From positions 5,394,001-5,458,000 of the forward strand of contig NZ_CP084058.1 of NCBI RefSeq assembly GCF_020215645.1: a stretch of 64,000 nucleotides of DNA. Reading direction: 5' to 3'. Positions within the stretch are counted from its first letter, which is position 1. Each line of letters starts with the position of its first letter. The position numbers and the translations under genes were made by a program. This DNA comes from Nonomuraea gerenzanensis. Its GTDB lineage: Bacteria > Actinomycetota > Actinomycetes > Streptosporangiales > Streptosporangiaceae. Positions 19,999 through 35,534 of this stretch are shown piece after piece. Below the pieces are notes generated by a model. It was not told the origin of the DNA. It searched no databases and saw only the letters and a program-made list of their open reading frames with translations.

Positions 19999-21699
19999 AT
20001 GACGGATGGACTCGACCTCGGAACACTCGACCTGATGCTGGACGCGCTCGGCGACTTCGTGACCGCGGCGCTGCCCGAGGAACGGCTGCTGGAGCTGGAC
20101 CGCGACGACCTCTGCCCCGAGGACACGGTCAGGCAGATGTGCGGTGACGACCTGGGCGTGCAGCTCGCCTTCGTGCCCGAGGAGTACGGCGGCATGGGCG
20201 GCGGCGCATTCGACTCCTACCGCATCTGCGAGCGCCTGGCCCGGCTCGACCTGGGGCTGGCCACGTCGGTGTTCGCGACGTTCCTCGGCAGTGACCCCAT
20301 CCTGTTCGGCGGGACCGCGGAGCAGAAGGAGCGCTGGCTGGGCCGGATCGCCAAGGAGGGCATCCTGTTCGCGTACGGGGCGACCGAGCCCGAGGCCGGC
20401 AGCGACCTCGGCGCCCTGCGGACCACCGCGACCCCCGTGCCGGGCGGCTACCGGATCAACGGCCGCAAGCAGTGGATCAGCAACGGCTCCATCGCCGACG
20501 CCTGGAGCGTGCTGGCGCTTGCCCCCGGCGGTCCGTCCTGGTTCGTGGTGGAACGCGGCGCCGAGGGCTTCTCCACGGCACCGCCGGAGGACAAGCACGG
20601 CATCCGGCTGTCGAACACCGCGGCGCTCTACCTCGACGACGTGTACGTCCCGGCGGAGAACCTGGTCGGCCTGGTGGAGGGCAAGGGCCTGACGCAGGCG
20701 CAGAACGTCTTCGGCTACACCCGGCTCATGGTCGCGGCCTTCGGGCTCGGTGGCGGCTGGGAGGCCACCGAGCGGGCGATCCGCTACTCGCTCGACCGCG
20801 TCCAGGCGGGCGCGGCCCTGGCCACCAAGCAGGGCTACACCCACAAGCTGATCGTGCCGCACGTCGTACGGCTGGAGGCCGCGCGGGCGTTCATCGAGGA
20901 GACCGCGACCCGCATCGACGCGGGCGAGGGCTCGCTCAACACCGAGGGCGCCATCGCCAAGTACCTGGCCAGCGAGGCGGGCAACGCCGCCGCCGAGGCC
21001 GCCATCCAGGCCCACGGCGGGTACGGCTACACCAAGCCGTACCTGGTCGAGAAGATCAAACGGGACGTGCGCATCACCACGATCTACGAAGGCACCTCCG
21101 AGATCCTGGAGATGACCATCGCCAGGGACCGCTGGCAGCAGCACCTCAAGACCCGCGCCGCCCACTACCGCGACGCCGCCGCCACGGTGGCCGCGCTGCC
21201 CGCGCGGACCGGCGCGGCCACCGCCGCCCTCGCGCTCGACGGGCTCGCCGCCGTCCTGGAGGGCTGCCGGGCCGGGCGGCTGACCCGTAACCAGCACGTC
21301 CTGCTGCGGCTCGGTGAGCTGATCGGGTACGGCGAGGCGGCGGCCAGCCTCGCCCGGCGCGCCGCCGCCGCGCTCGACGGCACGCTGCCGGAGAAGGCCG
21401 AGCGCCGCTTCGGCCCCGCCGCGCTCGCGGCCATCAGCCGGGTCTTCGCCCGGGAAGCCGCGATGAAGATCGCCGAAGAGGGCACGCGGTGGGTCCTCGG
21501 CGCCCTCCCCGAACACGCCGCCACAGACTCCGCCGCCACGGACCCGGGCGCTGCAGACCCCACCGCCGATTACGGCGCCGCCGAGCTGGACGGGCTGCGC
21601 GCCGGTGAGGTGCGGCAGGTGCAGCGCGGCCTGCTCGCCGACATGGACCTGATCGCGGACGTCCTCTACGGCCGCGCCGACCCCCAGGACCCCTCATGA
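19999..21699 (+). CDS. Acyl-CoA dehydrogenase family protein
   Basis: This 566-residue flavoenzyme starts at ATG 19999 after GAGAGGGAGGCGAG. It shows ACAD signatures [17 protein letters not shown] and the C-terminal signature [35 protein letters not shown] split around the catalytic region; the base would be the Glu in IYEGTSE. The last 170 residues extend beyond the usual 380-residue core, as in the larger ACAD11/FadE5-like class, and include an Ala-rich insert at 515-530. ACADs form the 2,3-double bond of acyl-CoAs. Its stop overlaps the synthase start (ATGA), so it may desaturate or prime the chain handled by the synthase. Confidence 0.92.
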
Positions 21700-24600
21700 A
21701 TCCCATCACGCTCGAACCCGTCGCCGTCATCGGCCTCGGCGCGATCATGCCCGACGCCCCCGACGCGACCTCCTTCTGGGAGAACATCAAGAGAGGCCGA
21801 TACTCCATCTCCGACGTCCCGCCCGAGCGCTGGGACCCCGCCCTCTACTACGACCCCGACCCGAAGGCGCCGGACAAGACGTACTCGCGTATCGGCGGCT
21901 GGGTGCGGGACTACCCCTGGGATCCCATGGGCTGGCGGCTGGCCGTGCCACCCGCCGTGGCCGCGCAGCTCGACGGCGGCCAGAAGTGGGCCATCAGCGC
22001 CGCCAGGTCGGCGCTGCGGGACGCCGGCTGGCCGAACTGGACGGTCGATCCGGAACGGGTCGCCGTGGTCATCGGCAACGCCATCGGCGGCGAGAAGCAC
22101 TACCGCTCCAACACCCGCGTCGAGCTGCCGGAGTTCGTGCGGCGTCTGGAGCAGTCACCCGCCTTCGCCACCCTGCCCGCCGACGTGCGCGAGGCCGTGC
22201 TGCGCGAGACCACCGGCTCCTTCCTGGACGGGTACCCGCCGATCACCGAGGACACCATGCCGGGCGAGCTGGCCAACATCATCGCCGGCCGGGTGGCCAA
22301 CCTGTTCAACTTCCGCGGCCCCAACTTCACCACCGACGCCGCCTGCGCCTCCGGCCTGGCCGCCATGTCCTCGGCCGTACGCGGGCTGCAGGCGCACGAC
22401 TTCGACACCGTGATCACCGGTGGCGTGGACCGGAACATGGGGGTGGCCGCGTTCGTCAAGTTCTGCAAGATCGGCGCGCTGTCGGCCACCGGCACCCGGC
22501 CCTTCGACGCGGGCGCCGACGGGTTCGTGATGGGGGAGGGCGCGGCGCTGTTCGTGCTCAAGCGCCTGGCCGACGCCGAACGCGACGGCGACCGCGTCTA
22601 CGCCGTCATCCGCGGCATCGCCGGCTCCAGCGACGGCAAGGGCAAGGGCATCACCGCGCCCAACCCGATCGGGCAGCGGCTGGCCATCGAGCGGGCCTGG
22701 GCGGGCGCCGGCCTGAGCCCCGCCGACGCCACGCTCGTCGAGGCCCACGGCACCTCCACCCGCGTCGGCGACGCCACCGAGCTGGGCGCGCTGAGCGAGG
22801 TGTTCGAGAAGGCCGGCGCGGAGCGCGGCGCCATCGCGCTCGGCTCGGTCAAGTCCAACATCGGCCACCTCAAGGCCGCCGCCGGGGCTGCCGGGCTGTT
22901 CAAGATCGTGATGAGCCTGCACGAGCATGTCCTGCCGCCCAGCCTGCACTTCGAGACCCCGAACCCGAACGTCGACTGGTCGGCCATCCCCTTCCGGGTC
23001 GGCACCGAGCTGCAGGAGTGGGCGCGGCCCGCCGGCGGGGTGCGGTGCGCCGGGGTGAGCGCGTTCGGGTTCGGCGGCACGAACTTCCACGTCGTGCTGG
23101 AGGAGTACATCCCCGGCCGCCACCGCTTCACCGGCACCCCGGTCACCTACGCCACGTCCGGCACCCCGGCCGCCACCCTGACCACGCCCACCGCACCGGG
23201 CAGCGCCACGCCGGTGGCGCGGGTGCCCGGCGGGGCCAGGCCGCCGCTGCGTGGGGCCGCCGTCGTGGGCGGGGCCGACGAGGCCGAGGTCATCGCCCGG
23301 CTCGAACAGGTGCGCGCCACCGCCACCCCGCAGCCGCCCGACCCCGCGCTCGCCACCGCCGCCATCAGGGTCGCCATCGACTACGCCGACCCCGCCGACC
23401 TGGCCGCCAAGGCGGCGAAGGCCGTCGCCGCCCTGCGGACCGGCGACCAGGCCAGGTGGCGCATGCTGCGCGCCCAGGGCGTGTTCCTCGGCCGCGGCTC
23501 CGCGCCCAAGGTCGCCTTCCTCTACACCGGCCAGGGCTCGCAGTACGTCAACATGCTGCGCGACCTGCGCGAGCGCGAGCCCATCGTGGCCGCCACGTTC
23601 GACGAGGCCGACCGGGTGATGACACCGCTGCTCGGCCGGCCGCTGACCTCGTACGTCTTCAGCGACGACACCGACCCCGGCGCGGCACAGCAGGCGCTGC
23701 TGCAGACGGAGATCACCCAGCCCGCCGTGCTGACCGTGGACGCCGCGCTCACCCGCCTGCTGGAGGCGTACGGGGTGCGCGCCGACATGGTGATGGGCCA
23801 CAGCCTCGGCGAGTACGGCGCGCTCGTCGCGGCCGGATCGCTGACCTTCGAGGCGGCCCTGGAGGCCGTCAGCGCGCGCGGCCGGGAGATGGCCTCCCTG
23901 GAGGTGCCCGACAACGGCGCCATGGCCGCCGTCTTCGGCCCGCTGCCGCAGGTCGAGCGCATCGTGGCGGAGTGCGACGGCTACGTCGTGGTCGCCAACA
24001 TCAACAGCACCGCCCAGGCCGTGGTCGGCGGCGCCACCGAGGCTGTCGAGGCGGCCGTCGAGCGCTTCCGCGCGGCGGGCATGACCGCGAGCCGCATCCC
24101 CGTCAGCCACGCCTTCCACACCTCGATCGTGGCGCCCGCGGGCGAGCCACTGAAGGCGGTGCTGCGCCGCCTCGACATCCGGCCGCCCGCCAAGCCGATC
24201 GTGGCCAACGTGACCGGCGCGTTCTACCCGGACGACGCCGACGCCGAGACCATGCTCGACATCCTCGGCCGCCAGGTCGCCTCGCCGGTGCGGTTCGTGA
24301 CCGGCCTGCGCACGCTGTACGACGCGGGCGCGCGCGTCTTCGTCGAGGTGGGGCCGAAGAAGGCGCTGCACGGCTTCGCCGAGGACGTGCTCGGCTCGGT
24401 GCACGACGACGTGCTCGCGCTGTTCACCAACCACCCCAAGAACGGCGGCGTCCCCGCCTTCAACCAGGCCCTGTGCGGCCTGTACGCCGCCGGCCTGGGC
24501 TTCCCCGCCACCGACGTGCCCGACCGGACGCCCGCCACGGTGCCGGCGCCCGCCACCTCCGCGAGGCCCACCACTCCCATGAGGCCCACCATGACCCCAG

Positions 24601-34830: not shown

Positions 34831-35534
34831 GATGGCTGGCACGCGGCGAGCGGCACCTGCCCGCCGGCGACGGCTGGCTGGCCCCCGGGGAGGCCCGGCG
34901 GGCGGCCGGCATGCGCTTCACCAAGCGGCGCACCGAGTTCCTGGTCGCCCGCTGGACGGCCAAGGAGGCCATGGGCCGGCTCTACCCGGCGCCCGCGTAC
35001 GAGCTGGAGGTGCGCCACCATCCCAGCGGCGCCCCCGAGGCGTACCTGGCGGGGGCGCCGCTGCCGGTCGGCCTGTCACTGACCGACCGCGCGGGCTGGG
35101 CGGTGTGCCTGCTCGGCCTGGAGCCCGGCGCGGTCGGCTGCGACCTGGAGCTGGTGGAGCCGCGCAGCCCCGGTTTCGTCGCCGACTACTTCACCGCCGC
35201 CGAGCGGCGGCTCATCGGCGCGGACCCGCTGCGTGCCAACCTGCTGTGGTCGGCCAAGGAGAGCGCGCTGAAGGTGCTGCGCACCGGGCTGCGCAGGGAC
35301 ACCCGCTCGGTCGAGGTGACGCTCGGCTGCGCCACGCCGTCCGGCGGGTGGAGCGGGCTGACGGTGCGGACGGCGGAGGGCAGGACGTTGCACGGGTGGT
35401 GGCACAGGTTCGGCGACTTCCTGCTCACGGTGGCGACCGACCGGCCGGCGCCGCCGCCGTCCTGCCTGGAGGAACCGCCCGCGCTGGCCTCCGCCTCACC
35501 GTCGCACAGCTGGCTGGCACGCCCCCTGCGCTGA
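34827..35534 (+). CDS. 4'-phosphopantetheinyl transferase superfamily protein
   Basis: This 235-residue protein starts at ATG 34827, overlapping the carboxylase stop (ATGA). It has the Sfp-type magnesium motif GCDLELVEPRS and WSAKESALKVLRTGLRRDT, the two hallmarks of PPTases that attach phosphopantetheine to carrier domains. As last gene of the operon it is the obvious activator of the synthase carrier domain, though that domain shows Thr at the attachment site. The C-terminal 25 residues are Pro/Ser-rich and may be dispensable. Confidence 0.9.
   Translation: MRWLARGERHLPAGDGWLAPGEARRAAGMRFTKRRTEFLVARWTAKEAMGRLYPAPAYELEVRHHPSGAPEAYLAGAPLPVGLSLTDRAGWAVCLLGLEPGAVGCDLELVEPRSPGFVADYFTAAERRLIGADPLRANLLWSAKESALKVLRTGLRRDTRSVEVTLGCATPSGGWSGLTVRTAEGRTLHGWWHRFGDFLLTVATDRPAPPPSCLEEPPALASASPSHSWLARPLR

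Follow-up and report, generated by a model that had tools for sequence, protein, structure and literature searches.

A four-gene operon in the 12.07-Mb genome of Nonomuraea gerenzanensis may encode an iterative fatty-chain synthase that is largely self-contained and has affinities to the Type R group of Pfa-like clusters. We analysed a 64-kb stretch of that genome (hereafter the window), and we consider the chances of this proposal, together with the whole scheme of steps set out below, to be evenly balanced. Judged from sequence, the operon is widespread across phyla and is distinguished by a Thr at the attachment position of its carrier domain, by an exchange between an acyl-CoA dehydrogenase (ACAD) and PfaD within the family, and by an upstream box found in Nonomuraea and Planobispora. 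Its four open reading frames (ORFs) are the following:

19999..21699, + strand, ACAD of 566 aa with catalytic Glu364 (Pfam)
21696..29363, + strand, iterative synthase of 2555 aa, with the order ketosynthase-acyltransferase-ketosynthase-acyl carrier protein-ketoreductase-dehydratase (KS-AT-KS-ACP-KR-DH; Pfam, alignment)
29365..34830, + strand, single-chain carboxylase of 1821 aa, with the order biotin carboxylase-biotin carrier-ACC_central-carboxyl transferase (BC-BCCP-ACC_central-CT) and biotin Lys632 (Pfam)
34827..35534, + strand, phosphopantetheinyl transferase (PPTase) of 235 aa with Asp106, Glu108, Lys144 and Glu145 intact (Pfam, alignment)

All four are intact, lie on the same strand and are joined by 4-bp overlaps or a 1-bp gap, in agreement with a preliminary description of this DNA. 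The domain calls made there for three of the proteins are borne out throughout by Pfam, which recognises the N, middle and C domains of the ACAD, KS twice, AT, PP-binding, KR and DH in the synthase, and ACPS in the PPTase. No ER (enoyl reductase) domain was found by Pfam in the window synthase. Its other catalytic parts and its carrier are located as follows:

23517..24386, + strand, AT domain, residues 608-897, with motifs GHSLG and HAFH (Pfam, alignment)
25443..25445, + strand, codon of the KS2 active-site Cys1250 (alignment)
26469..26672, + strand, single ACP domain, residues 1592-1659 (Pfam; AlphaFold model with ACP fold)
26559..26561, + strand, codon of Thr1622, in the place of the phosphopantetheine Ser (motif scan, tblastn, alignment, model)
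27840..28277, + strand, KR domain with Ser2149, Tyr2162 and Asn2166 present (Pfam, alignment)
28524..29315, + strand, DH domain with His2296 and Glu2465 (Pfam, alignment)

Conservation of these residues was read from an alignment of 70 rows, some of which end at contig ends and two of which (L028 and L038) come from one contig. The Cys, His and His of KS1 are kept in 67, 66 and 67 rows, the remainder being two to three gaps and no more than one different residue. Those of KS2 are kept in 69, 70 and 70 rows, on which grounds the idea of KS2 as a chain-length factor (CLF) was rejected. In the AT domain, Ser703 is present in 69/70 and His808 in 70/70 rows, GHSLG in 68/70 and HAFH in 69/70. We take the HAFH-type motif to be malonyl-specific, and on that reading a branched-chain extender is considered unlikely. 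The KR residues are all found in the 49 rows that reach the domain, as are DH His2296 in 47/47 and Glu2465 in 46/46. The protein is not a PfaA proper (TIGR02813), as it scores 781.7 bits, below the curated cut-off of 1010.1. A second KS-AT gene of the source genome (L151, G000:C1:5204093-5206612, 2231-aa frame) shares 38% identity with the first part of the window synthase.

To place the operon among its relatives, one genome per species was scanned, and the best 80 of at least 585 confirmed synthase relatives were used. These loci belong to Actinomycetota (27), Acidobacteriota (26), Chloroflexota (19), Myxococcota or Deltaproteobacteria (5), Calditrichota (1) and Gemmatimonadota (1), with one unassigned; many Acidobacteriota and a metagenome-assembled Roseiflexus genome (L090) are among them. 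Adjacency was counted only at loci with sequenced flank on the relevant side, 71 upstream and 37 downstream. The ACAD gene lies immediately 5' of the synthase gene in 64 of the 71 (Actinomycetota 24/24, Acidobacteriota 23/23, Chloroflexota 10/17, others 7/7), and the single-chain carboxylase gene follows the synthase in 26 of the 37 (12/12, 12/14, 0/8 and 2/3, in the same order). A PPTase gene is present downstream in 34/37 (10/12, 14/14, 8/8 and 2/3), encoded on the other strand at several Actinomycetota loci; it was not found in L064, L083 and L095 within the sequenced stretch examined. The ACAD, synthase and carboxylase genes also occur together in Acidobacteriota, Myxococcota and Calditrichota. 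Few genomes of the genus itself have the block: a close carboxylase orthologue (80-100% identity) is present in 4 of 36 same-genus genomes. Three Mycobacterium sp. loci (L041, L043 and L095) have ACAD, synthase and single-chain carboxylase, with a synthase identity of 71% over the best segment; in L041 and L043 a PPTase gene runs on the other strand, and in L095 none was found.

The most unusual feature of the family is its carrier. Ser is the textbook attachment point in carrier proteins. The window carrier does not have the canonical Ser of GxDS, and Thr1622 stands in its place. The motif DLEADLG(V/I)DTVKQ is nearly invariant among relatives, which have 1-6 tandem ACP repeats, some of these counts being affected by contig ends. 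A motif scan that left the attachment residue free read Thr in 173/173 repeats from 68 of 83 loci. With tblastn, 184 ACP stretches were recovered from 71 of the 83 loci (182 Thr, 1 Pro and 1 short of the residue), and all 182 unbroken stretches that cover the attachment residue have Thr; of the two others, L077 has a stop and reads Pro and L048 ends before the residue. Most of the 12 loci without a tblastn match stop inside the synthase. L081 and L103 are KS-AT-KS loci with no recognisable ACP of the Thr kind although their DNA continues. Ser is present in fewer than one third of the repeats at each of 65 columns (maximum 50/173). Two further Thr residues of the repeat are nearly invariant (171/173 and 170/173) and are distant from the attachment place.

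Carriers outside the family were read in the same way. The ACP query was run against 394 genomes of the class, 79 of which matched at E 1e-6, and 30 loci plus two further stretches were re-read, giving 44 aligned matches that cover the residue. All six matches at E 4e-33 or better, the window included, have Thr, and all 38 at E 2e-19 or worse have Ser. The split was made by E-value because identity fails to separate the two residues: a 55% identity threshold, set post hoc, was dropped, as a 40-residue fragment at 60% has Ser and a full-length match at 52% has Thr. A DNA pattern allowing either residue gave five matches in 396 genomes of the phylum, four with Thr (window included) and one with Ser. 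The source genome has 42 PP-binding matches; 30 of the 41 others were fetched, and all 30 have Ser. In the AlphaFold model of the ACP (mean pLDDT 83), which resembles solved ACPs (best E 2.7e-4), helix II (47-61) is predicted to begin at the Thr.

The linked PPTase appears intact throughout the family. Asp106, Glu108, Lys144 and Glu145, whose roles we presume to be catalytic, are present in 44/44 aligned rows, as are the Gly and Pro of P1a (Type R motif x(G/D)xP). At the His position of P1b' (Type R motif hShxH), 27 of the 44 rows have His and 17 have Asp; the window PPTase has Asp87 there (35085-35087). Since an intact PPTase is linked to the carrier, the simplest reading is that it would modify Thr1622. 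If so, Thr carriers would not be served by housekeeping PPTases, which may explain why the operon has a PPTase of its own. A Thr-linked carrier arm was not found in the searchable literature, in which few subscription journals are covered (PMC11744666, PMC2823734). As the Thr is fixed and mostly stands beside a dedicated PPTase, the family permits a direct test of natural Thr-borne phosphopantetheine.

The second feature concerns enoyl reduction. PfaD is the enoyl reductase of polyunsaturated fatty acid (PUFA) synthases. The ACAD, whose Glu364 is kept in 70/71 aligned rows (one gap), is absent from 7 of the 17 testable Chloroflexota loci. The ACAD-less loci form one clade (support 1.0 and 0.999 in two trees), with the ACAD-bearing L111 as sister. 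The clade is nested in the ACAD-bearing family under both midpoint and outgroup rooting, some deep supports of the second tree being very low. All five ACAD-less loci with downstream DNA have a PfaD relative beyond the PPTase gene (in L087 as two overlapping frames), and Pfam recognised PfaD_N, nitronate monooxygenase and a FabD helical insert in two of these; none of the 33 other downstream-testable loci has PfaD. From the PfaD of the ACAD-less clade we infer that the ACAD acts as the enoyl reductase, fed from quinol via electron-transfer flavoprotein (ETF). The exchange points to a specific candidate for the enoyl-reduction step missing from a class of lipid synthases that was catalogued, with no product assigned, in 2011.

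Genes for such an electron supply are found at some loci. At 26 of the 80 loci, 7 from Actinomycetota and 19 from Acidobacteriota, the ACAD is preceded by ETF-alpha; ETF-beta accompanies it at 25 loci and an FeS/CCG protein at 24. Pfam was run on three representatives, to which the acidobacterial copies are only ~30% identical. The potentials of menaquinone (~ -74 mV) and enoyl-CoA (~ -10 mV) permit menaquinol-driven enoyl reduction. ACAD reversal via complex I, rhodoquinone and ETF has been reported for anaerobic wax synthesis in Euglena, in the part of that work consulted (PMC6334954). If the ACAD indeed works in this direction, lipid storage and the respiratory chain may be coupled when oxygen is low.

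As for the carboxylase, Pfam recognises biotin carboxylase, biotin carrier, ACC_central (partial) and carboxyl transferase in a single chain, and the best solved-structure matches of the CT half are acetyl-CoA carboxylase (ACC) CT chains, which upholds the earlier call of a one-chain, eukaryote-like enzyme. Those structures are, we presume, mostly eukaryotic. Of 47 aligned rows, 43 retain the biotin Lys, which is missing or unaligned in the other four. In four of the eight downstream-testable Chloroflexota loci (L090, L097, L105 and L110), separate CT and BC genes lie near the synthase, as blastp with L090 queries showed, Pfam having been applied to the CT, BC and BCCP of L090 and the CT of L110; the other four have no carboxylase in the stretch examined. 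The joining of a carboxylase to the synthase in two forms supports the idea that it feeds the synthase. The consulted part of PMC3199775 does not settle the substrate of the carboxylase. A second single-chain carboxylase, ~52% identical (L026, G000:C1:1068849-1074290), is full-length or nearly so in 24 of the 36 same-genus genomes, the source genome included. No synthase was found beside it in flanks of mostly 1.5 kb, with 20-kb stretches for seven loci, a sample that includes L031 and L032 from other families. The carboxylase alone was therefore dropped as a marker of the block.

Upstream of the operon, the preliminary description had placed a DosR-like box; two such inverted repeats are present by pattern scan, and a further one lies elsewhere in the window:

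19831..19844, no strand assigned, DosR/OsdR-like inverted repeat GGGACGGAAGTCCC, 168 bp before the ACAD start
19895..19908, no strand assigned, another DosR/OsdR-like repeat, AGGACGAAAGTCCT, 104 bp upstream of the ACAD start
52792..52805, no strand assigned, second perfect box GGGACGAACGTCCC, before a pair formed by a small ORF and a wax ester synthase/diacylglycerol acyltransferase (WS/DGAT) gene

Likeness to DosR sites is meant here with respect to the mycobacterial DevR/DosR consensus as it is reportedly written. Both operon boxes fit the form RGGACN4GTCCY. Among 65 sound upstream regions of 68 (L069, L071 and L075 were excluded, their ACAD being cut by the contig start), six rows have such a box. 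As L028 and L038 share a contig, these represent five distinct loci, namely 5/5 of those from Nonomuraea and Planobispora, with 0.005 boxes expected per region. No box was found in the other sound upstream regions, among which are those of Mycobacterium, Acidobacteriota and Chloroflexota. A hypoxia response common to the whole family is thus rejected, and low-oxygen control would be local. A wider form, GGGMCN4GKCCC, occurs eight times in the window (shuffled mean 2.5, none of 100 shuffles reaching eight); genome-wide there are 210 sites, or 1.1 per 64 kb, making the window about sevenfold denser. The genome-wide number is not enriched relative to a reversed control (437), and as the form was chosen after the sites were seen, its enrichment is a description and not a test. 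The boxes are clustered in the window rather than abundant in the genome. The hypoxia link proposed earlier may hold for Nonomuraea and Planobispora, judging from the conserved box and, in the window, from the clustering, and does not extend to the relatives whose upstream regions have no box. A 63-aa ORF (52906-53097) lies between the perfect box and the WS/DGAT gene, whose start it overlaps.

The two wax ester synthases and the gpsA gene reported earlier for the same island were located:

14945..16438, + strand, WS/DGAT acyltransferase that may be the end user of the chain (Pfam)
53094..54503, + strand, second WS/DGAT acyltransferase, inside ORF 52461-54503 (Pfam, ORF reading)
36522..37616, - strand, gpsA, glycerol-3-phosphate dehydrogenase (Pfam)

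Among the neighbours at the 80 loci are WS/DGAT relatives in 12, AdhE-like proteins in six and gpsA in two (L038 and L047). Our best guess for the product is a neutral or wax lipid, and the unusual storage lipid of the preliminary description would be plausible. At 55323-58500, a gene of the animal haem peroxidase type precedes one for a cytochrome P450. Pairs of this kind oxygenate fatty acids in fungi, and this one might act on the operon product. Class I lanthipeptide-like genes lie 5' of the lipid island and code for a LanC-like cyclase (6485-7813) and a LanB-type dehydratase (7810-10764). An 849-aa ORF (41313-43862) has a weak NACHT match (26.8 bits, cut-off 26.7).

Taken together, we propose that the single-chain carboxylase would supply malonyl-CoA, which the HAFH-type AT would load, onto a carrier whose Thr would have received phosphopantetheine from the linked PPTase. 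The two KS domains would extend the chain, the KR would reduce and the DH dehydrate it. Enoyl reduction would fall to the ACAD working in reverse, with electrons from reduced menaquinone via ETF, or to PfaD in the ACAD-less clade. The chain would then pass to WS/DGAT and be stored as neutral or wax lipid, so that the pathway may serve as a sink for electrons and carbon. A fall in oxygen would, in Nonomuraea and Planobispora, switch the operon on through a DosR/OsdR-like regulator. It is tempting to generalise that a family of iterative lipid synthases from at least five phyla uses phosphopantetheine linked to Thr by a linked PPTase, and that quinol-driven reduction by the ACAD replaces NAD(P)H in a low-oxygen electron sink; this wider statement is tentative, and we lean somewhat against it.

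Several observations weigh against the proposed scheme. ACADs usually oxidise, and ETF and the FeS/CCG protein are equally suited to oxidation; the ETF linkage is absent in the window, in the Mycobacterium loci and in ACAD-bearing Chloroflexota, and the tree shows one exchange of ACAD for PfaD, not five. No thioesterase or release step was identified, and linkage to WS/DGAT is found in a minority of loci (12/80). As for the boxes, GGGACN4GTCCC with one mismatch has 15 sites in the window, where shuffled sequence gives 9.0 and 4/100 shuffles reach 15, and perfect boxes are not enriched genome-wide (25 sites, 24 in the reversed control). In Euglena, ACAD silencing left ~60% of the wax ester, according to the portion of the study consulted (PMC6334954).

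Alternatively, the ACAD could act as a desaturase or in tailoring; it would oxidise the chain and pass electrons via ETF to menaquinone, giving a polyene or polyunsaturated product. The lack of an ER domain in the synthase and the intact catalytic Glu of the ACAD would fit such a role, and so would the ETF and FeS/CCG genes that precede the ACAD in 24-26 of 80 loci, as these proteins are the usual exit route for ACAD electrons. We nevertheless find it rather unlikely, given that the ACAD-less clade has PfaD in 5/5 testable loci, which points to the same step in both, albeit through one event. It could also be that the Thr is never modified, the ACPs being structural, with a separate carrier or CoA thioesters doing the work and the PPTase serving another protein. 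The Ser of 38/38 distant carriers and of 30/30 other carriers of the genome speaks for this, as do the three of 37 testable loci without a PPTase and the failure to find a Thr-linked arm in the searchable literature. However, the Thr and its DLEADLGxDTVKQ surroundings are nearly invariant, unlike a decaying site, no column of 65 has Ser in even a third of the repeats, and a PPTase is found downstream in 34/37 loci with its catalytic residues in 44/44 rows. Non-modification is thus improbable in our opinion.

Finally, the operon might make an ordinary secondary metabolite, an antibiotic-type polyketide and not a lipid. Its domain set is like that of an iterative type I polyketide synthase, the genome has 42 PP-binding matches, and lanthipeptide-type genes lie upstream in the window. 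Yet genes for tailoring, transport or resistance are absent from the four-gene block, the ACAD, synthase and carboxylase are found again in Acidobacteriota, Myxococcota and Calditrichota, and the recurrent neighbours are lipid genes (WS/DGAT in 12, AdhE-like in 6 and ETF in 26 of 80 loci), which makes a polyketide very improbable. A fatty-chain synthase with a modified Thr carrier and a reductive ACAD remains the reading that we prefer.

The layout, which the preliminary description had taken to be undescribed, is widespread among relatives by synteny search, and its synthase/PPTase pair was catalogued in 2011, when Shulse & Allen distinguished 20 types of Pfa-like clusters. In the available text (PMC3098273), Type R, whose product is given as unknown, has KS-MAT-CLF-ACP(3-6)-KR in one protein and a PPTase gene downstream; of the five listed members, Koribacter alone has an acetyl-CoA carboxylase part between the two. 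By that description, Type R is the closest described kind, of which the window system would be a variant. The window shares the KS-AT-KS-ACP-KR order, the downstream PPTase and a Koribacter-like carboxylase gene between them, and relatives of its synthase were also found in two groups of Type R hosts, Acidobacteria and Roseiflexus. In contrast, the KS2 called CLF in Type R keeps its Cys-His-His in the window, one ACP replaces three to six, and the consulted text mentions no DH, ACAD or Thr carrier (PMC3098273).

PfaA/PfaD-type PUFA synthases share the KS-AT start and the ACP-KR logic, and PfaD itself occurs in one Chloroflexota branch of the family; they differ in that the window carrier has Thr, not Ser, and no PfaD gene was found in the Pfam-scanned part of the window. 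With eukaryotic-type ACC the window carboxylase has in common the BC-BCCP-central-CT order and a CT that is nearest to ACC CT chains among solved structures, but it is bacterial, 1821 aa long, and its central region is only partly matched by ACC_central. The OsdR and DevR/DosR regulons resemble the window in the similar shape of their palindromic boxes (PMC5069765), and the island has universal stress proteins and a LuxR-type response regulator. The published OsdR consensus of Streptomyces, as given in the part of that source consulted, is AGGGCCGATCGGCCCT (PMC5069765), from which the window box departs. In the consulted part of the Euglena study (PMC6334954), which leaves the share of ACAD in the reduction open, wax synthesis is a mitochondrial reversed beta-oxidation, whereas the window has a type I synthase with its own carboxylase; the two systems would nevertheless share enoyl reduction by a quinol/ETF-fed ACAD and the storage of wax esters at low oxygen, both of which are proposals in the case of the window.

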